Shown here: piece after piece, positions 11,316-29,569 of the stretch
Numbering within the stretch: position 1 is the first letter of the stretch
Layout of the letters: every line of letters begins with the position of its first letter
Source of the DNA: Pseudomonadota bacterium
GTDB lineage: Bacteria; Pseudomonadota; Gammaproteobacteria; Burkholderiales; Ferrovaceae
DNA length: 32,629 bases
Assembly: GCA_021811005.1 (NCBI GenBank)
Contig: JAJZPY010000003.1
Coordinates: 1-32,629, forward strand
Direction of reading: 5' to 3'
Position numbers and translations under genes: made by a program
The notes under the pieces: model-generated
What the model was told of the DNA's origin: nothing
Seen by the model: only the letters and a program-made list of their open reading frames with translations
The model's database searches: none

Positions 11316-12563
11316 TCACTGCCTTCGTTTTGTTTCCGCCATTCTCAATGCTGCTGCCAATCCGGACAGGAAAGTCAGCACTGCCACGGCCCAGACGGCT
11401 GTGGCCGGGCCGAACTGTTCCGCGGTGAAGCCGGCCAGTAGCGCGCCCACCGCATAGCCCAGATCGCGCCACAGGCGATAGACGCCCACGGCGGAAGCGC
11501 GCCAGGAAGGATGGGCCACATCGCCGATGGCCGCCAGCAGCGTGGGATACACCATGGCCGTGCCGAATCCCAGCAACAGGGCGCCGGCCATGAAGGCCGG
11601 GAACGTGTTGGCGATGGCCGTGAGGCCGATGCCGGCTGCTTGCAGCCACATGCCTCCCACGATCAGGCCCTTGCGACCGATCCGGTCCGAAGCGGCTCCC
11701 GTGAATATCTGGAAAATGCCCCAGACGGCCGGATAGGCGGCCGTGAGCAGGCCGATTTGCGTGAGCGTCATGCCTTTTGCCGCAAACAGCAGGGGAAACA
11801 AGCCCCAGGCCATGCCGTCGTTGAGATTGTTCACCAGGCCCACCTGGCTCACGCTGGAAAGGTTGGGGTCGGTCCAGGAAGATCGACGGAATATTTCACC
11901 CTGGGAAGGAATGCCGAGGTGACGGGTGACTTCATGGTGCACTTTGATCTCGTGGGCCACATGGTGCCGGGTTTCCCGCACGGCAAGAAGCGACAGCAAA
12001 AAGCCGATGACCACGTAGCCGATGCCGAGGTAGAACGGCTGGGGGCGCAGCCCGTAATGCGCGGCAATCCAGCCGGTGGCAAGCGCGCTGCCTGCCACGG
12101 CAAAGTAGCCGGAAAATTCGTTGAGCCCCATGGCCAGCCCGCGACGTGACGGGCCCACCAGGTCGATTTTCATGATGACGGTGGTGGACCAGGTGAGTCC
12201 CTGGCTGACGCCCAGAAAGGCGTTGGCCACCAGAATCCAGTTCCAGGAGGGGGCCCAGATCAGCAGGAAAGGAACCGGGGCCGCCACCAGCCAACCTGCG
12301 ACCAGCACGTGCTTGCGGCCGAAGCGGTCGGAAAGCCGCCCGGCAAAATAGTTGGTCAGGGCTTTGGTGATGCCGAACACCACGATGAACGACAGGATGG
12401 CCACCTGCCCCAGCACATGGAAGTCCGTCTCTGCCAGGAGGGGCAGGATGCCGCGTTCCAGCCCCACCATGGCGCCCACGAAAGCATTCACCAGCAGCAG
12501 CAGAAGGAACTGGCCGAGGTTGTTTTTCAGGCCCAGCTGAACGGCCGGCCCGCCTGGCCTCAT
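11316..12563 (-). CDS. MFS transporter
   Basis: About 12 hydrophobic segments; MFS loop motif GRLSDRFGRKHVLVAG and repeat GAASDRIGRKGLIVGG; start overlaps the MBL-protein stop (ATGA). Confidence 0.88.
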   Translation of the reverse strand: MRPGGPAVQLGLKNNLGQFLLLLLVNAFVGAMVGLERGILPLLAETDFHVLGQVAILSFIVVFGITKALTNYFAGRLSDRFGRKHVLVAGWLVAAPVPFLLIWAPSWNWILVANAFLGVSQGLTWSTTVIMKIDLVGPSRRGLAMGLNEFSGYFAVAGSALATGWIAAHYGLRPQPFYLGIGYVVIGFLLSLLAVRETRHHVAHEIKVHHEVTRHLGIPSQGEIFRRSSWTDPNLSSVSQVGLVNNLNDGMAWGLFPLLFAAKGMTLTQIGLLTAAYPAVWGIFQIFTGAASDRIGRKGLIVGGMWLQAAGIGLTAIANTFPAFMAGALLLGFGTAMVYPTLLAAIGDVAHPSWRASAVGVYRLWRDLGYAVGALLAGFTAEQFGPATAVWAVAVLTFLSGLAAALRMAETKRRQ

Positions 12564-13297
12564 GCTGGCAGGCCGAGGTTGGCCCTGACCATCGCGTCCA
12601 TCTGGGCGGGGCGCGGCGGAATGTCGCTCGTCACCTGGGTGATGAAGTCCGGCCGGGTCATGGAGAGCGCGGGGTTCCAGCGCTTTTCAAAACCCAGGGT
12701 GGAGGAAGGTTTTCCCGACAGGCCCGCGCCGCAGGCGCTGCCCGCCTGGTGGCCCGGAAAGATTTCCAGCTCGTCAGGCAACACCAGCAACCGGCCGTGC
12801 AGGCTGTCGTACAGAATGCCGGCCATTTCCGCTTCATGCCCGGCCAGATCGGGGCGCCCCACGGCACCCACGAACAGGGTATCGCCCGTGATGACAAACC
12901 ACGGGGCTTCGCCGCGCCGCTTGTCGGTGACCAGCAGGCAGATGCTGTCGGGGGTATGGCCGGGCGTGTGCAGCACCTGCACGCGGACATTGCCCACGTC
13001 CAGCTGCTGGTTGTCCTGCAATGCTTCAAAATCGTGGCGCACGGCGCCACGGTTGGATTCATGCAAGCAGTACGGAACGCCCAGGCGGGCGGCCAGCTTC
13101 CAGCCTCCCGAGTAATGGTCGGCATGCACGTGCGTGTCGATCACGTAATTGATGGGCACGCCGGCCCGGCGCGCTTCTTCCACAAACCAGTCTTCGTCTC
13201 CCGCTACCACATCCACGGCAACGGACTTGCCCAGGCCGGTGCAGCCGAAGAAATAAGACAAGGTCGCTTCCCGCGTGGCCAATTGCCTGAAGAACAT
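12560..13297 (-). CDS. MBL-fold metallo-hydrolase, persulfide-dioxygenase-like
   Basis: Start trimmed to MFFRQLATREATLSYFFGC with AGGAGGT just upstream. Motifs THVHADHYSGG, HTPGHTPDSI, GDTLFVGAVGRPDL, GHQAGSACGAGLSGKPSSTLGFEKRWN. Confidence 0.87.
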   Translation of the reverse strand: MFFRQLATREATLSYFFGCTGLGKSVAVDVVAGDEDWFVEEARRAGVPINYVIDTHVHADHYSGGWKLAARLGVPYCLHESNRGAVRHDFEALQDNQQLDVGNVRVQVLHTPGHTPDSICLLVTDKRRGEAPWFVITGDTLFVGAVGRPDLAGHEAEMAGILYDSLHGRLLVLPDELEIFPGHQAGSACGAGLSGKPSSTLGFEKRWNPALSMTRPDFITQVTSDIPPRPAQMDAMVRANLGLPA

Positions 13298-13305
13298 AAG
13301 ACCTC

Positions 13306-13656
13306 CTAAAAAACCAGGACCTGGTTTGCTTCCGCGGTCCATTGCGCAAGCTGCGCCAGCGTGGACCGCTGGGCGCCTTCGACGAGCTCGGCATCGGTGA
13401 GTCCGCGCGCATCCATGCAGGTACCGCACAGGCGCACGGCACCCTTGCGCACAACCTTGCCCAGCATGAGCTGCAGGTTGTAATAGCCATCCGGTACTTT
13501 CTGTCCGGCTTTTGCGACAGCGACGGCATCGGCCAGCAGAAACAGGTGTACCTGCTGGTCCGGCAGGGCAGAGAGGGCGCCGGCAAGCCGCAGTCCGTTG
13601 TAGGACCGTTCGCTTCCGTAAGGGGCTTCGTTGAGAATGAACAGCGTGGTTTTCAT
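13306..13656 (-). CDS. DsrE-family protein (possible sulfur carrier)
   Basis: Start trimmed to MKTTLFILNEAPYGSERSYNGLRLAGAL; conserved Cys motif VRLCGTCMDARGL; 116 aa. Confidence 0.85.
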   Translation of the reverse strand: MKTTLFILNEAPYGSERSYNGLRLAGALSALPDQQVHLFLLADAVAVAKAGQKVPDGYYNLQLMLGKVVRKGAVRLCGTCMDARGLTDAELVEGAQRSTLAQLAQWTAEANQVLVF

Positions 13657-13706
13657 GGCAATCTCCAGATAGTCCCCCTCTGGATTCGTATGGGCCAACC
13701 CTTTCT

Positions 13707-14384
13707 TTATTGTGGTGTAACGACCAGGGTTTCCAGCGGCAGGCCGGCAGCCTGCCATTCGCTCACCCCATCCGACAGCTTGCGCGCCTGGCGTCCCTTG
13801 TTCCTGAGCATTTCGATGGCTTCGTCCGCCATGAGGCAGAAGGGGCCGCGGCAATAGGCCACGATTTCCCGGTTGCGTGGCAGTTCGGCGATGCGGCTGA
13901 CCAGTTCCGACAAGGGCATGGAACGGGCATAGGGCAGGTGAGCCCTGTCGTATTCCGCTCTTGGGCGCACGTCGATGACGATGATTTCGCCCCGCCTTGC
14001 CTGCTCCAGCAATCCTTCGCGGGCCATGGGCGTGAGGTGTTCAGGGTTGGCCACCATCCGGTCCAGCGCCAGGCGCAGTTCCAGCAGATGTTCCTCGGCC
14101 ACCTGCCGCAACTGGACCCACAGCAAGGCCACGTCCGTGCCGCTCAACTGGTACACCACATGTTTGCCGGCGCGCCGGGAAGTCACGAGGTGGGCGGCTT
14201 TCAGGCGCTTGAGGTGGGCGCTGGCGAGCTTGATGTCGATGGACAGTTCGCTGGCCAACTGCTCAACCGTTTTCTCGCCCTGGGCCAGCACTTCCAGCAG
14301 TTCCAGGCGCTTGGGACTGGCCACGGCGCTGCCAACGCGGGCCACCTGTTCGTACAGCAGGTCTTTGAGGGATCGTTTGTTCAT
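13707..14384 (-). CDS. ArsR-family HTH regulator fused to a rhodanese domain
   Basis: N-terminal winged helix (SPKRLELLEVLAQGEKTVEQLASELSIDIKLASAHLKRLKAAHLVTSRRAGKHVVYQL) followed by rhodanese (VIDVRPRAEYDRAHLPYARSMP...IVAYCRGPFCLMADEAIEML). Confidence 0.92.
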   Translation of the reverse strand: MNKRSLKDLLYEQVARVGSAVASPKRLELLEVLAQGEKTVEQLASELSIDIKLASAHLKRLKAAHLVTSRRAGKHVVYQLSGTDVALLWVQLRQVAEEHLLELRLALDRMVANPEHLTPMAREGLLEQARRGEIIVIDVRPRAEYDRAHLPYARSMPLSELVSRIAELPRNREIVAYCRGPFCLMADEAIEMLRNKGRQARKLSDGVSEWQAAGLPLETLVVTPQ

Positions 14385-21343: not shown

Positions 21344-21370
21344 AAAACGCCCTGCAGGGCAGGGCGTTTT
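21344..21370. terminator. Bidirectional rho-independent terminator between SDR and cytochrome genes
   Basis: AAAACGCCCTGC-agg-GCAGGGCGTTTT: A-tract and T-tract flank both sides of the stem between convergent genes. Confidence 0.9.
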
Positions 21371-21406: not shown

Positions 21407-22132
21407 TTACTTCAGCGATTGCAGGTAGAGCGACACTTCGTGCTTCTGCATGTCGCTCAGGCCATGGGCGATGCCTTCCATGGCCACACCCGCCGGACGC
21501 TCAAGGTCATCACCATTCGAGTTCAGGTGATGTTTCTCGTTTTCCTCTTCACGCTGGGCGTCGTCGTTGAAAGCCATCAGCTGCTTGTAGAGGTAGTCCG
21601 CATGCTGGCCGGCCAGACGGGGAATCGGGCCATTGCCTTCGGCATTGGCGCCGTGGCAAGCCATGCAGGGCGGAACTGCCTTTTCCAGGAAACCTTCGTT
21701 GAAGATTTTCTGGCCGGCTTTCACCATGGCCGGATCGGCCTCGGCAGTGCCGGGGTTGGGCAACGGTTTCTGATGCGAGAAGTATTCGGCCAGTTCCTTC
21801 ATCTGCTTCGGCGTCATGTCGCGGGTGATGCCCCACATCATGGCCTGGCCGGCATCATCCTTGCGGTGGTGCGTCTGGAATTCCTGCAGTTCAGCCACGA
21901 TGTACACTTCCTGCTGACCTGCCAGGATCGGGAACGTCGGGTTGACCGAATTGCCGTTCACGTTGCTGCCCACGTCGCCGTGGCAAATGGAACACACTTG
22001 CTGGGCCAGGGTGTGACCCGACACGTCGGGATTGAGCAGGCTGCGGCTGCGGTCAAGACCCGTGGAGCAGGCACTCAATGCCAGCGCAACGGCCGAAAGG
22101 GTCAGAATTTTGGTGATCTGTTTCATATTCAT
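21407..22132 (-). CDS. Diheme c-type cytochrome (c4-like), predicted lipoprotein
   Basis: Two CXXCH motifs (VCSICHGDVGS and PCMACHGANAEG); lipobox LSACS; repeated PxLAGQ motifs (FPILAGQQEVY, IPRLAGQHADY) typical of cytochrome c4. Confidence 0.92.
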   Translation of the reverse strand: MNMKQITKILTLSAVALALSACSTGLDRSRSLLNPDVSGHTLAQQVCSICHGDVGSNVNGNSVNPTFPILAGQQEVYIVAELQEFQTHHRKDDAGQAMMWGITRDMTPKQMKELAEYFSHQKPLPNPGTAEADPAMVKAGQKIFNEGFLEKAVPPCMACHGANAEGNGPIPRLAGQHADYLYKQLMAFNDDAQREEENEKHHLNSNGDDLERPAGVAMEGIAHGLSDMQKHEVSLYLQSLK

Positions 22133-22139
22133 CCCTCTC

Positions 22140-23549
22140 TTAGTAGATCAACGTGGCGTAGAGCATGGACGTGTTGAAGTCATGCGCGCTCAGGTTGTTG
22201 GCGCCGGCCATTTGACCGCTCGTGCCACCCATCTGGGTGTAGAACGTGTACATATAGCCGATGCGGATATTTTGTGCCGGGGCCCAGAACACGCTTGGCA
22301 TCCAGGACTGCCAGTTGGGGCTGCCGTTGGGCGTGAACGCATACAGGCCGGTGTCGTTGCTGCCGGTAGCCCCATGGTAGAACAGCATGGCGCCGTACTT
22401 GGCCTTGTAAATGTAGGTCACGTCAGCCCAGGTTTCGTTCAGGGTGTCCGTGGGGTTGGTCGGAACCAGGCCCGAGGAGTTCGGCATGCCCAGGACGTTG
22501 TTCATGTCCTCGTGGGTGACACGGAAGTGGGCCGAGAAGTAGTGCGGGTCGAGCACGTACTGGTACTGGGCATCAATGCCGTAGTCGCGGTAGGTGCTGA
22601 CGGAGCCGGACCAGTCGGAATACCCCAGAACGTCGTTGTTATGAACATACGACGTCATGCCGTGGATACCGGCCTGGAAGCTGTGGGGACCCCATTCCTT
22701 GTTGTAGGCAAAACGGTAGTAGGGGGACGGATCCAGTTCAGGCACGCCACCGGAGCCCGTGGCACCACCCGTCATGAAAGACAGGGGACCGTGGGTGATG
22801 GACTTGTACACGCCCAGTTCGCCGTACCAGGTTTTGTCCTTGAACACGTAGGCACCTGCACCCACTTCGGCATGTTGGGCCGATGAGCCCATCAGGAAGG
22901 TTCCGGGAGCTTGCGCGCCACCACCGTTGAAGTAGCCGATCCAGTCGGAAGTCCAGTTTTCCGTGCTGTTCCACACATCGGACATGGTGGAGCGGTTGTT
23001 GGCATAGAAACCGTAAATCAGGTCGGTGTCCTTGCCCACAATGCGGTCCGCCCAGCGGAATTCCGTGTTGTCGATGCCGGAAGACTGGGTGTACTGGCTG
23101 CCTGACGTGATGTTGCCGTCATACTTGTTCCAGGTCCACTGCACGAAGGCACCGAGGTTATCGGTGATGTGGCCGCCGGTGAACAGGCTGACCACCTGCA
23201 GGTCAAACGAGGACGACGGTGCGCTCCCGTTGCCAGCAGCCGGGGTGGTGTTGGTGTAGTACTGGCGTGCGGTTTGCAGCATGACCGCAACCGGCGGACG
23301 GTCGATGTTGGTGGTGAGGTTGAAAATATCGTTCGCGTTGCCCAAGGTGTAACCGGTCAACTTGAACATGCGGCCCAGCGAAGTGAGCTGCGGATACTCG
23401 CCACCCACGTGACAGGCGACGCATTTGAAACCGGTCTGTCGTGCAAAGACCGGGATGGCACTGGCATCCATCGAGGCTGCCAGGGTTACCACACCCAAGA
23501 GCGCGAGCAATGGTCGCCGCGCCCTTTCCAGCAGGCTTGTTAACTTCAT
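22140..23549 (-). CDS. Monoheme cytochrome c-porin fusion (Cyc2-like architecture)
   Basis: Start trimmed to MKLTSLLERARRPLLALLGVVTLAASMDASA; IPVFARQTGFKCVACHVGGEYPQLTSLGRMFKLTGYTL holds a single CXXCH right after the signal peptide; the remaining ~400 aa are aromatic/Gly-rich alternating strands ending in ...SMLYATLIY. Confidence 0.78.
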   Translation of the reverse strand: MKLTSLLERARRPLLALLGVVTLAASMDASAIPVFARQTGFKCVACHVGGEYPQLTSLGRMFKLTGYTLGNANDIFNLTTNIDRPPVAVMLQTARQYYTNTTPAAGNGSAPSSSFDLQVVSLFTGGHITDNLGAFVQWTWNKYDGNITSGSQYTQSSGIDNTEFRWADRIVGKDTDLIYGFYANNRSTMSDVWNSTENWTSDWIGYFNGGGAQAPGTFLMGSSAQHAEVGAGAYVFKDKTWYGELGVYKSITHGPLSFMTGGATGSGGVPELDPSPYYRFAYNKEWGPHSFQAGIHGMTSYVHNNDVLGYSDWSGSVSTYRDYGIDAQYQYVLDPHYFSAHFRVTHEDMNNVLGMPNSSGLVPTNPTDTLNETWADVTYIYKAKYGAMLFYHGATGSNDTGLYAFTPNGSPNWQSWMPSVFWAPAQNIRIGYMYTFYTQMGGTSGQMAGANNLSAHDFNTSMLYATLIY

Positions 23550-23772: not shown

Positions 23773-25779
23773 TTACAGGATGTTCCGGACGGTCTGGGCG
23801 AGCCCTTCGGCGGTCAGGCCGAAGTGTTTGAAAAGGGCGCCGGCGGGTGCCGACTCGCCAAAAGTGTCGATGCCCAGCACGGCCTTGCAGCCGTATTTCC
23901 ACCACAGGGCGGTGCTGCCGGCTTCCACCGCCACCTTGGGGATGTGGGGCGGAAGCACGGCTTCGCGGTAGTCGCGTTCCTGCAGGTCGAAGGTGGTGGT
24001 GGCGGGCATGGACACCACGCGCACCGGAATGCCTTCCGCTGCCAGCAGTTTCTGCGCTTCCACCGCCAGCCCCACTTCCGATCCGGTGGCGATCAGCACG
24101 GCCTGGGCCATGCCTTCCGCTTCGCGCAGCACGTAGCCGCCACGCGCGATGTCCACGATCTGCTCGGGCGTACGCGACTGGAATGGCAGGTTCTGGCGGC
24201 TGAAGATGAGGCAGGTGGGCCCATGGGCGCGGCGCACGGCCGATGACCAGGCCACGGCCGTTTCTGTGGTGTCGCAGGGGCGCCACACGTCCATGTGGGG
24301 AATCAGGCGCAGGGTGGAGACGTGTTCCACTGACTGGTGGGTGGGGCCGTCTTCGCCCAGACCGATGGAGTCGTGGGTAAACACGAAAATCGAACGGATT
24401 TTCATGAGGGCGGCCATGCGCAGGGCGTTTTTGCTGTAGTCGGAGAACGTCAGGAACGTGCCGCCATAGGGAATGAAGCCGCCATGCAGGGTGATGCCGT
24501 TCATCATGGCGCTCATGCCGAACTCGCGCACGCCGTAGCTCAGGTAATTGCCCGGCTTGACGGCATCCAGCGGCACGCTGCCGCTCCAGTTGGTGAGGTT
24601 GGATCCCGTAAGGTCGGCCGAGCCGCCAAAAAATTCCGGCAGCACCGGTCCGAACGCTTCCAGGGTGTTCTGGCTGGCCTTGCGGGTGGCGATGGTTTCG
24701 CCCTTGTCGCGGCACTTGGCAATGAACTCCAGGGCCGATATTTCAAACTGGGCCGGCAGTTCCCCTTTCATGCGGCGCAGGAATTCCGCCGCTTCTGCGG
24801 GATAGGCCGCCTGATAGGCCTTGAAGCGCTGGTTCCATTCGGTTTCCTGGGCTTCGCCGCGGGGGCGGGCATCCCAGGCCTGGTAGGCGTCGGCGGGAAT
24901 TTCAAAGGGACCGTAAGCCCAGCCCAGGGTCATGCGCACGGCCGCGATTTCGTCGGGGCCCAGCGGGCTGCCGTGCACGTCGTGGGTGCCGGCCTTGTTG
25001 GGACTGCCGTGGCCGATGATGGTCTTGCAGCAGATGAGGGTGGGGCGGTCACTTTGCTTGGCCGCCTCGATGGCGTCCGAAATTTCCGCCACGTCATGGC
25101 CGTCCACGCCGCGCACCACGTTCCAGCCGTACGCTTCGAAACGCTTGGGCGTGTCTTCGGCAAACCAGCCCGTGACATGGCCGTCGATGGAAATGCCGTT
25201 GTCGTCCCAGAACGCGATCAGCTTGCGCAGTTTCAGGGTGCCGGCCAGCGAACAGGCTTCCTGACTTACGCCTTCCATCATGCAGCCATCGCCCATGAAC
25301 ACGTAGGTGTGATGGTCCACCAGGGTGTGACCGGGGCGGTTAAACTGTTCGCCCATCATGCGTTCGGCCAGCGCCATGCCCACGGCGTTGGCGATGCCCT
25401 GGCCAAGCGGGCCGGTGGTGGTTTCCACGCCCGGCGTGAGGCCGTATTCGGGATGCCCCGGCGTTTTGCTGTGCAGTTGCCGGAAATGCTTGATTTCGTC
25501 CATGGACAGGTCATAGCCCGTCAGGTGCAGCAGGGTGTAGAGCAGCATGGACGCATGCCCGTTGGACAGGACGAAACGGTCACGGTCGGCCCAATGGGGG
25601 TTGGCCGGGTTGTGCCTGAGGTGGCGTCCCCACAGGGCCACCGCCATTTCGGCCATCCCCATGGGGGCGCCGGGATGGCCGGAATTGGCCTTTTGCACGG
25701 CGTCCATGGAAAGGACGCGGATGCTGTTGGCCATGAGCGTGGTGTGCTGGCGGGCAAGGCCTTCGGTCATGATGGGCAA
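23773..25779 (-). CDS. tkt: Transketolase
   Basis: [76 protein letters not shown]. Confidence 0.96.
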
Positions 25780-25800
25780 TCTCTGAAAAGGGAATGGGGA

Positions 25801-26865
25801 TTAGCGGATTTTCGGGGCCAGCTCGCCCTTGGCGTAGCGCTCGCTCATGGCTTCCATGGAAAGGGGCTTGATCTTGCTGGCCTGGCCCGCGCTGCCGAAG
25901 GCTTCGAAGCGCAGCTTGCAAATGCCCATGGCGGCCTTGCGGGCGTCGATCAGGAACTTGCGCGGGTCGAATTCGGAAGGGTTCTTGAACAGGTGGGCGC
26001 GAATGGCGCCGGTCATGGCGAGCCGGATGTCGGTGTCGATGTTGACCTTGCGCACCCCGTGCTTGATGGCTTCCACGATTTCTTCCACCGGTACGCCGTA
26101 GGTTTCCTTGATGTCGCCGCCGTTGGCGCGGATCACTTCCAGCCAGTCCTGGGGCACGGAAGAGGAACCGTGCATCACGAGGTGGGTGCCGGGAATGCGC
26201 GCATGGATTTCCTTCACGCGCCAGATGGCGAGCGTTTCGCCGGTGGGGGCCTTGGTGAACTTGTAGGCGCCGTGGCTGGTGCCGATGGCGATGGCGAGCG
26301 CATCCACGCCGGTCTGGCGCACGAAATCGGCGGCCTGTTCGGGGTCGGTGAGCAGCTGGTCGTGGGAAAGCTTGCCTTCCGCGCCATGGCCGTCTTCCTC
26401 GCCCATCATGCCGGACTCCAGCGAGCCCAGGCAGCCCAGTTCGCCTTCCACCGACACGCCCACGGCATGGGCCATGTCCACCACCTGTTTGGTGGTGCGC
26501 ACGTTGTATTCAAACGTGGAGGGAGTCTTCATGTCTTCCATGAGCGAGCCGTCCATCATCACGCTGGAAAATCCGGAGCGGATGGAACGCTGGCACACGG
26601 CCGGGCTGGCGCCATGGTCCTGGTGCATGCACACCGGAATGTCGGGATACATTTCCACCGCCCCTTCGATCAGCTTGCGCAGGAACGGTTCGCCGGCATA
26701 TTTCCGGGCGCCGGCGGAACCCTGCATGATCACCGGGCTGTTGACGGCGCTCGCCGCTTCCATGATGGCCTGGATCTGCTCCAGGTTGTTGACGTTGAAG
26801 GCGGGCAGGCCATAGCCGTTTTCAGCTGCGTGATCGAGCAGTTGCCGGAGGGAAATGAGAGCCAT
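25801..26865 (-). CDS. fba: Class II fructose-bisphosphate aldolase
   Basis: [88 protein letters not shown]. Confidence 0.96.
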
Positions 26866-26889
26866 GATTTTTCCTTGGATGTTTTAAAT

Positions 26890-27591
26890 TCAAACAGTTA
26901 CTGCGCGTCCCGGGGTCATGCCCAGGCGCATTTCAAGTTCCTCAAAGCTGTCGAGCACAGCGTCCGGGCCGGCCGCAGCAATGGGTTCTCCGTGATTGTA
27001 CCCGTGGTTGAAAGCCCACACAGCCACTCCCGCGTTGCGCGACGCCTGCACGTCGTTGCTGGAGTCCCCCACGAACAGGGCTTCTTCCTGCTCCACTCCG
27101 GCGCGTTCCAGCGCCAGCTGCAGGGGCAGCGGGCTGGGTTTGCCCTGGGGCGTGTCGCCGCCGGCCACCACCACGTCGAATTGCGTGCTGAGCGCATGGC
27201 GTTCCAGCAGCTGCAGGGTCAGGCTGCGTTCCTTGTTGGTGACCACGCCCAGGCGGCAGCCGGCCTGGCGCAGCTCTTTCAGCACGGCCTGGGCGCCGGG
27301 GTAGGGGGCGCTGTATTCGCCGTTGACCGCGGCATAGTGATGGATGAAGCGCGGGTAGAGCTGCTCGAACAGCGTGGATTTCGGCCCTTCGCGACCCTGG
27401 GTGGCGGCGCCCAAGGCATTGCCGAAGAGCCAGGCCGTGCCCTTGCCGATCCAGTTGCGAATCTGGTCCGCGGGCAGGGGCGGCAGACCCGCTTCCGCCA
27501 GGGTGCGGTTGACGGCTTCGGCGATTTCGCTCGCCGTGTCCACCAGCGTGCCGTCAAGGTCGAACATGATGAAGCGGGGCAGGGTGTGCAT
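26890..27591 (-). CDS. gph: Phosphoglycolate phosphatase (HAD superfamily)
   Basis: ORF 26890..27987 trimmed to MHTLPRFIMFDLDGTLVDTASEIAEAVNRTL; HAD motifs DLDGTLVDT, GVVTNKERS, KPSPLPL, FVGDSSNDVQASRNAGV. Could equally be named cbbZ. Confidence 0.92.
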   Translation of the reverse strand: MHTLPRFIMFDLDGTLVDTASEIAEAVNRTLAEAGLPPLPADQIRNWIGKGTAWLFGNALGAATQGREGPKSTLFEQLYPRFIHHYAAVNGEYSAPYPGAQAVLKELRQAGCRLGVVTNKERSLTLQLLERHALSTQFDVVVAGGDTPQGKPSPLPLQLALERAGVEQEEALFVGDSSNDVQASRNAGVAVWAFNHGYNHGEPIAAAGPDAVLDSFEELEMRLGMTPGRAVTV

Positions 27592-27593
27592 GA

Positions 27594-28469
27594 TCAGAAG
27601 GCCTTGCGCTTGATGTCCAGCAGCTTGAGGATCATGGGCGTGAAAATGAGCTGCATGGCCAGTCCCATCTTGCCGCCGGGAATCACGATGGAATTGGGAC
27701 GCGTCATCCAGGAATCGTGCAGCATGGACAGCAGATACTGGAAATCGATGCCGCGCGGGTTGGCAAAGCGGATCACCACCATGCTTTCGTCGGCGGAAGG
27801 AATGTCCTTGGCGATGAATGGATTGGACGTGTCCACCGTGGGCACGCGCTGGAAGTTCACGTGGGTGTGTGAAAACTGCGGGCAGATGTGGCTCACGTAA
27901 TCCGGCATGCGGCGCAGGATGGTGTCGGTCACAGCTTCCTGGGAATAGCCGCGCAGCTTCTGGTCGCGATGCAGTTTCTGGATCCACTCCAGGTTGATGA
28001 TGGGCACCACGCCCACCAGCAGGTCCACCTGGGCGGCAATGTTGACCTTGTCGTCGGCGTAGCCGCCATGCAGCCCTTCGTAGAACATCAGGTCGGTGTT
28101 GGCCGGGATGTCTTCCCAGGGAATGAAAGTCCCGGGCTTTTGCTTGTAGGGAGCGGCTTCCGCGTCGTCGTGCAGGTAGCGCCGGACCTTGCCAGTGCCC
28201 GAGGCTCCGTAGGACTTGAACAGGGCTTCCAGTTCTTCCAGCAGGTTGGCTTCCGGGCCGAAGTGGCTGAAATGCAGGTTGCCGCGAGCTTCCTCGGCTT
28301 TCATCTGCTCGCGCATGCCGGCCCGGTCATAACGGTGAAAGGAATCGCCTTCCACGACCTGGGCGGCGATCTGTTCGCGCCGGAAAATGTGCTTGAAGCT
28401 GTTCATGACCGTGGTGGTTCCGGCGCCCGAAGAACCGGTGACGGCAATGATGGGGTGTTTGCGGGACAT
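27594..28469 (-). CDS. prk: Phosphoribulokinase
   Basis: ORF trimmed to MSRKHPIIAVTGSSGAGTTTVMNSFKHIFRREQIAAQVVEGDSFHRYDR; P-loop GSSGAGTTT; FYEGLHGGY; 291 aa, proteobacterial-type length. Confidence 0.96.
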   Translation of the reverse strand: MSRKHPIIAVTGSSGAGTTTVMNSFKHIFRREQIAAQVVEGDSFHRYDRAGMREQMKAEEARGNLHFSHFGPEANLLEELEALFKSYGASGTGKVRRYLHDDAEAAPYKQKPGTFIPWEDIPANTDLMFYEGLHGGYADDKVNIAAQVDLLVGVVPIINLEWIQKLHRDQKLRGYSQEAVTDTILRRMPDYVSHICPQFSHTHVNFQRVPTVDTSNPFIAKDIPSADESMVVIRFANPRGIDFQYLLSMLHDSWMTRPNSIVIPGGKMGLAMQLIFTPMILKLLDIKRKAF

Positions 28470-28501
28470 GGGACGATACCTCGCTCGGCAATGGGGGGAA
28501 A

Positions 28502-29569
28502 TCAGGACCGGTACAGTCCGCGCTCGCTGAACAGCGGGGATTCGTAAGGCTTGTCGGTTCCGGTGTCGTATTCGGCGTGGTAGCGCACCAAGCGCTCCAC
28601 CTCGTTGCGCGAGCCCAGGATCACGGGCACGCGCTGGTGAATCTGGGAAGGCACGAGGTCCAGCAGGCGCTCGCGCCCGGTGCTGGACACGCCGCCTGCC
28701 TGTTCCACCAGAAAGCTCATGGGATTGGCTTCGTACAGCAGGCGCAGGCGCCCCGGCTTGGAAGGATCCTTGGTGTCGCGCGGGTACATGAAAATGCCGC
28801 CGCGCATGAGGATGCGGTGCACTTCCGCCACCATGGAGGCGATCCAGCGCATGTTGAAATCGCGTTCGCGCGGGCCGGTCTTGCCGGCCTTGCATTCCGA
28901 CACGTAGCGCGTCACGGGCGGTTCCCAGAAACGTTCGTTGGAGGTGTTGATGGCGAATTCGCTGGTGTCGGCCGGAATCTGGATGTCGGGGTGGGTCAGC
29001 ACGAAGTTGCCCACTTCCCGGTCCAGGGTGAAGCCGTGGGTGCCGCTGCCCACCGTCAGCACCATCAGCGTGGCCGGGCCGTACAGGGCATAGCCCGCCG
29101 CCACCTGGCGCTGGCCGGGTTGCAGGTAGTCCCCTGCCACGGTATCGCCCGATTCGGGCGCGTGCAGGATGGAGAAAATGGAACCCACCGAGACGTTCAC
29201 GTCGATGTTGGAAGAACCGTCCAGGGGGTCGAACACGGCCAGGAACGGGCCGCGCCGGTTGGGGGCTTCAATGGGAATGGGGTCGTCCATTTCTTCGGAA
29301 GCGAGCCCGGCCACCAGTCCGCCCATCTGGAACACGTTGACGAACTCGTTGTTGGACAGCACGTCCAGGGGTTTCTGCGTTTCGCCCTGCACGTTGATGG
29401 AATCAAGCGAGCCCGTCGCGCCGCTCAAGGCTCCCTTGGAGCACAGCGCGGCAATCGCCTTGACGGCCGCGGCCACATCCACCAGAAGCGCCGCCAGGGC
29501 CGCACCATCACGGGTGCCGCCGACGTTTTCGATCAAGAACTTGGATAAGGTCATGCGGCCCATAGGCAT
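28502..29569 (-). CDS. fbp: Fructose-1,6-bisphosphatase class I
   Basis: [14 protein letters not shown]..., [63 protein letters not shown]. Confidence 0.96.

Follow-up and report, generated by a model that had tools for sequence, protein, structure and literature searches.

The window, by which we mean the whole 32,629-nucleotide stretch analysed here, comes from a Ferrovaceae bacterium of the acid-mine iron type (source assembly 1.88 Mb, 85% complete). It carries on its reverse strand a gene (cyc2) that joins a monoheme cytochrome to a predicted outer-membrane barrel and, directly downstream, a gene for a diheme cytochrome c4. The stop codon of cyc2 (TAA, 22142–22140) is followed by a 7-bp spacer, GAGAGGG, and then by the ATG of c4 at 22132. 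A Shine–Dalgarno-like AGGGGG stands 7 nt ahead of the cyc2 ATG, and an alternative c4 start at Met3 (22126) suits the ribosome-binding-like GAGAGG better. The coordinates, strand, lengths and residues of both genes, the gap and the lipobox agreed exactly with the original prediction. The features of the locus are as follows.

22140–23549, reverse strand: cyc2, 469-aa fusion of a monoheme cytochrome and a predicted outer-membrane barrel, assigned to the Cyc2 family by motif
23457–23549, reverse strand: Sec signal peptide, residues 1–31, MKLTSLLERARRPLLALLGVVTLAASMDASA, called by eye with its position from alignment A1
23433–23459, reverse strand: AIPVFARQT, Cyc2-defining motif, residues 31–39, from the published consensus and alignment A1
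23409–23423, reverse strand: CVACH heme motif, residues 43–47, followed by PQL (PXL) at residues 53–55
22143–23291, reverse strand: putative beta-barrel region, about residues 87–469, with 15–16 strands in low-confidence models
21407–22132, reverse strand: diheme cytochrome c4 (Cyc1/CytC-18 homologue), predicted lipoprotein, 241 aa, PF00034/PF13442
22067–22078, reverse strand: lipobox L19-S20-A21-C22 with Ser at +2 (LALSAC-S), conserved within the clade wherever such a c4 lipobox is found next to Cyc2
21995–22066, reverse strand: tether from the putative lipid-bearing Cys to heme 1, STGLDRSRSLLNPDVSGHTLAQQV, with conserved SR[NDSTA]
21980–21994, reverse strand: heme 1 motif CSICH, residues 47–51
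21653–21667, reverse strand: heme 2 motif CMACH, residues 156–160
21344–21370, reverse strand: terminator-like hairpin past the pair, 12 bp stem and T tail, the longest stem among six such sites

Six terminator-like sites were found where 2.5 were expected, and beyond the hairpin past the pair lies a convergent short-chain dehydrogenase (SDR) gene. A row of Calvin-cycle genes with the same orientation as cyc2 stands just upstream of it (23773–29569), encoding transketolase, class II aldolase, phosphoribulokinase and fructose-bisphosphatase. Elsewhere in the window (12560–14384), genes read by eye as metallo-beta-lactamase-fold, DsrE-like and ArsR–rhodanese proteins possibly serve sulfide or polysulfide handling.

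Because Cyc2 was found in 29 of 32 Ferrovaceae genomes (in all 18 of good quality) and its adjacency to c4 is kept across the family, the pair is not a chance arrangement. The same genome holds a second pair of cyc2 and lipobox-bearing c4 on contig C40 (4474–6518; L003), its products 55% and 60% identical to those of the first. This second Cyc2 has YARQTGQACVSCHLGG where the first has FARQTGFKCVACHVGG, and its type also occurs in other genera, standing in tandem with the first type at one locus (L006).

Assignment of the fusion protein to Cyc2

The fusion protein is laid out as a signal peptide, AIPVFARQTGFKCVACHVGGEYPQLTSLGRMFKLTGYTL and then a long strand-rich region running to a C-terminal ATLIY, with a single CXXCH (CVACH) 12 residues past the predicted end of the signal peptide. 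Keffer et al. 2021 (PMC8406198) gave AXPXFAR[Q/K][T/Y] upstream of CXXCH as a motif unique to Cyc2, alongside a PXL after CXXCH (at a consensus spacing of 4 residues), one heme, a fused 16-strand porin barrel and a length of at least 365 aa. The N-terminal AIPVFARQT-GFK-CVACH fits the motif; PQL follows CVACH after the five residues VGGEY, a spacing common to the clade; and the protein has one CXXCH, a Sec-type N-terminus and 469 residues. In alignment A1, A31, P33 and A36-R37-Q38-T39 are invariant, and the barrel loops are variable. No Pfam or NCBIfam model matches the protein, whose best matches (95–84% identity) come from MAGs that bear the names Betaproteobacteria, Proteobacteria and Ferrovaceae bacterium, while an uncultured Ferrovum stands at 67%; across genera of Ferrovaceae, Cyc2 is roughly 60% identical.

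On these sequence features, the product of 22140–23549 is an ordinary Ferrovaceae Cyc2, and it would belong to cluster 2, an assignment resting on a 2026 survey that places all Ferrovaceae Cyc2 there (PMC13390463). Fe(II) oxidation by Cyc2 has been published for representatives of all three clusters. The original prediction had judged by eye that the barrel does not obviously match canonical Cyc2, its only wrong detail given that all sequence criteria for Cyc2 are found in the protein, and had raised a separate subfamily with a different donor. That suggestion is not supported: the N-terminus, AIPVFARQTGFKCVACH..PQL, has the Cyc2-unique motif, and both cluster 2 and the cyc2–c4 adjacency are already published. 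A new subfamily or different donor was rejected on the exact motif.

AlphaFold models of the full and mature protein, built from alignments of 12 and 14 rows, were of low confidence (pLDDT 52 and 49, pTM 0.57 and 0.55, respectively), with 15 and 16 antiparallel strands in hairpins. A Foldseek search with the mature low-confidence model returned significant matches that were nearly all porin-type barrels (OmpF, OprO, OprP, AlgE), at low TM; PMC8406198 gives OprO and OprP as templates for Cyc2. The modelled strand pattern and the porin matches are consistent with a closed barrel. Since both models are of low confidence, we make no claim that the heme plugs the pore and treat the fold search as a sanity check only.

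The lipobox of the adjacent c4 and its inheritance with Cyc2

The downstream protein has tandem class-I heme domains, two CXXCH motifs and c4 homology; its best PDB match is 1h1o, the Acidithiobacillus ferrooxidans c552 (CYC41/Cyc1), at E = 1.4e-29. The c4 of A. ferrooxidans and that of Ferrovum are described as soluble and periplasmic, whereas the c4 of the window bears a lipobox and is by pattern a predicted lipoprotein. Lipidation was called throughout from this pattern rather than from SignalP, and the pattern admits Ser at −3 (L098, L102, L105) and Phe at −2 (L160).

Our survey covered 32 Ferrovaceae genomes and samples of the order (300 genomes) and the class (369), with Cyc2-like proteins found in 70 of the 300 and 56 of the 369. 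Among 118 distinct Cyc2, 48 had an adjacent lipobox c4, 12 a Sec-type c4, 11 a monoheme cytochrome and 43 none of these, with four loci cut. The 48 lipobox loci span ten families, of which nine, Ferrovaceae among them, belong to the order and one to another. Their +2 residue is Ser in 33, Ala in 12 and Thr in three, and never Asp; under the Escherichia coli sorting rule, any of these three residues directs a lipoprotein to the outer membrane. From the lipobox Cys to heme 1 the tether measures 23–32 residues, and SR[NDSTA] is present in 44 of the 48. By comparison, the lipobox is absent from 18 other c4, namely the 12 beside other Cyc2 types and six unlinked Ferrovaceae c4 (Fisher p = 1.5e-16, with rows that are not independent).

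Within Ferrovaceae, a lipobox c4 lies close behind every FAR-type Cyc2 with enough downstream DNA except for two loci, both of genus g2: in one the c4 has an ordinary Sec signal (L042), and the other is without an adjacent c4 (L078). The unlinked second c4 of Ferrovaceae (L091, L095, L096, L074, L075, L073) likewise has an ordinary Sec signal. The lipobox c4 accompany essentially one Cyc2 clade. Other Cyc2-like branches adjoin a small monoheme cytochrome instead of c4 (L111, L117, L131, L132, L167, L176, L179, L181, L183), and the type of partner therefore follows the Cyc2 branch. Genus g2 also has extra Cyc2-like proteins (L044, L077, L079, L083) that read FAEQTGQPC, with the Arg of FAR replaced by Glu; these have no heme neighbour and form their own fully supported branch.

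In an 87-row Cyc2 tree, the 46 rows with lipobox partners formed one group (support 92) with a single state change. In the 118-row tree, two long-branch rows with Sec-type partners (L136, L137) fell beside Ferrovaceae, giving two state changes; removal of these rows restored one change, with support of 47 for a single lipobox clade. The c4 tree placed the lipobox rows together except for L136 and L137, and one clade was not rejected by the AU test (p = 0.35). A single origin of the lipobox c4 thus appears likely from the trees. Path lengths in the Cyc2 and c4 trees correlated (r = 0.77 over 59 pairs, 0.80 over the 47 lipobox pairs and 0.60 over 24 pairs outside core Ferrovaceae), and none of 2000 permutations gave a correlation as high. 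The two trees are thus congruent, and the two proteins are inherited together.

True RuBisCO, counted as strong matches above 400 bits only, occurred in 14 of 18 genomes with lipobox pairs outside Ferrovaceae, compared with four of 18 phylogenetically unmatched control genomes from the order (p = 0.002). Homologues are consistently cytochrome-linked, with the closest Cyc2 clade enriched in RuBisCO genomes. The four lipobox-pair genomes in which true RuBisCO was not found, together with the variable barrel loops and the occurrence of Cyc2-like proteins in more genomes (70 of 300 and 56 of 369) than dedicated iron oxidisers alone would explain, would suit a separate cytochrome–porin subfamily that draws on a reduced sulfur compound, or on an electrode or mineral. 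We consider this very unlikely for the pair in the window in view of the exact Cyc2 motif, of the presence of the same Cyc2 type in the surveyed Ferrovaceae, whose known members live on Fe(II), and of domain-profile searches that found no sulfur-handling domain in either protein.

The conserved lipobox is apparently undescribed: no mention of a lipobox or lipoprotein on Cyc2-adjacent c4 was found in the openly available literature searched, and priority is not certain. Together, a AGGQFPELTPYGR / GGEYPQLTSLGR Cyc2 and a lipobox c4 with SR[NDSTA] offer a sequence marker for Cyc2 with a dedicated partner, setting it apart from the many Cyc2-like proteins of uncertain function.

A proposed route for electrons leaving Cyc2

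The electron-transport inventory of the source genome was drawn up by targeted searches. Profile searches found no rusticyanin in the 32 Ferrovaceae genomes, and a rusticyanin route was rejected on this result. Matches to the HiPIP profile rose above cut-off in genus g2 only and were not found in the source genome; as the profile may miss HiPIP-41-type Ferrovum forms, this absence is weak evidence. With no rusticyanin, and HiPIP in one genus only, the adjacent c4 becomes the obvious acceptor for Cyc2. Subunits of a cbb3 oxidase were found in the source genome.

These observations suggest that the two genes probably form an outer-membrane Fe(II)-oxidation module of Cyc2 and an outer-membrane-tethered c4. 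Fe(II) would give its electron to the single Cyc2 heme, at or in the pore, and at the periplasmic face the diheme c4 would receive it from Cyc2. After export by Sec, this c4 would gain a lipid on Cys22 and be routed to the outer membrane, in whose inner leaflet a tether of about 24 residues would hold it beside Cyc2. From such a position c4 would probably not get as far as the inner-membrane oxidase, and the next carrier would most naturally be the unlinked, soluble c4; this second, Sec-type c4 would then take the electron to cbb3 or uphill to bc1. We infer the lipidation, the outer-membrane location, the direct transfer from Cyc2 to c4 and the order of the chain. The core of the original prediction, that a cytochrome–porin fusion and a lipoprotein c4-type diheme cytochrome make up an outer-membrane conduit, very probably for Fe(II), is supported; its separate subfamily with a different donor is not.

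An outer-membrane c4 conflicts with a direct c4-to-oxidase step as published for Ferrovum, where CytC-18 is put between HiPIP and the inner-membrane oxidase (PMC10879576). In line with that assignment, and with the published A. ferrooxidans model, the same Cyc2 Fe(II) oxidase could be served by an adjacent c4 that is a soluble periplasmic shuttle, accepting electrons from HiPIP or rusticyanin and handing them straight to the inner-membrane oxidase; the published model of recombinant CytC-18 omits the signal and treats the protein as an ordinary periplasmic carrier, the A. ferrooxidans c4 is called soluble in the title of Cavazza 1996, and the c4 of the window is homologous to 1h1o. Such a shuttle seems unlikely to us, given that the lipobox, a Ser, Ala or Thr at +2 and the short tether are conserved in the clade and that the 18 other c4 have no lipobox; nor should a c4 with these dimensions, once fixed by a lipid, be able to bridge the periplasm.

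The source genome also encodes an MtrB/PioB-family outer-membrane protein (contig C75, 1090–3252; L192) above the curated cut-off, as do seven other Ferrovaceae, and a porin of this type has been published for a subset of the family. Its presence in Cyc2 genomes implies that Cyc2 and an Mto-like route coexist. Porin–cytochrome systems can run both ways, and with this second porin in the genome the pair might be imagined to move electrons outward, to Fe(III) or to partners. Such export is highly improbable in an autotrophic, cbb3-bearing genome, and the redox potentials of Ferrovum CytC-18 (276 and 416 mV) suit a carrier that takes up electrons from Fe(II) at acid pH and passes them to an oxidase.

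Returning to the tethered module, we regard it as an evenly balanced proposal that one Cyc2 clade, across ten families and two orders, works with a dedicated, bound outer-membrane lipoprotein c4, the two forming a minimal three-heme outer-membrane wire that replaces rusticyanin. If this is true, the step straight from c4 to the oxidase that has been published for Ferrovum would be wrong and a second carrier would be required. The proposal bears on how electrons pass from Cyc2 into the periplasm, a question common to acidophilic and many neutrophilic iron oxidisers.

Comparison with known iron-oxidation systems

The pair itself is already known, since Ferrovum CytC-18, encoded directly downstream of cyc2, has been published for strains JA12 and PN-J47-F6 (PMC4725956, PMC10879576). 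The window shares with that system the family, the same two genes in the same order and a diheme c4 with Cyc1 homology. It differs from the published model in that c4 there is periplasmic, between HiPIP and the oxidase, whereas the c4 here has a lipobox; the word 'lipoprotein' has no occurrence in the published CytC-18 text. The genome of the window also differs in having a second, paralogous pair and no HiPIP match.

As in the Cyc2–Cyc1 system of A. ferrooxidans, a cytochrome–porin gene precedes that of a diheme c4 whose best PDB match is Cyc1. Unlike the rus operon (cyc2-cyc1-cup-coxBACD-rus), no rusticyanin, cup or coxBACD lies downstream, the pair being followed by the hairpin and the convergent SDR gene. 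The Cyc2 of JA12 is only 29% identical to that of A. ferrooxidans, and descriptions of the A. ferrooxidans c4 have it either soluble or anchored by a helix, in contrast to the lipobox-bearing c4 of the window. Searching the class sample for rusticyanin pointed to one locus resembling the rus operon, in a distant member of the class (L205, 3461–10348), which has cyc2, coxB-like and coxA-like (by eye) genes and rusticyanin, with no c4 between them.

With cluster 1 Cyc2 (Mariprofundus, Gallionellaceae), the protein shares the AXPXFARQT...CXXCH...PXL cytochrome domain, fused here to a predicted porin. It differs in the five rather than four residues between CXXCH and PXL, and rows whose motif is cluster-1-like fall on a fully supported branch of their own, in which an adjacent heme protein is almost never present. 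With MtoAB and PioAB it shares the role of an outer-membrane electron conduit for Fe(II) that we propose here; those systems set a decaheme cytochrome in a separate 26-strand porin, unlike the one and two hemes of this pair and its porin without a family match. Set beside these systems, the family and the probable donor are known, and the partner, lipid-tethered by prediction, is a conserved variant.
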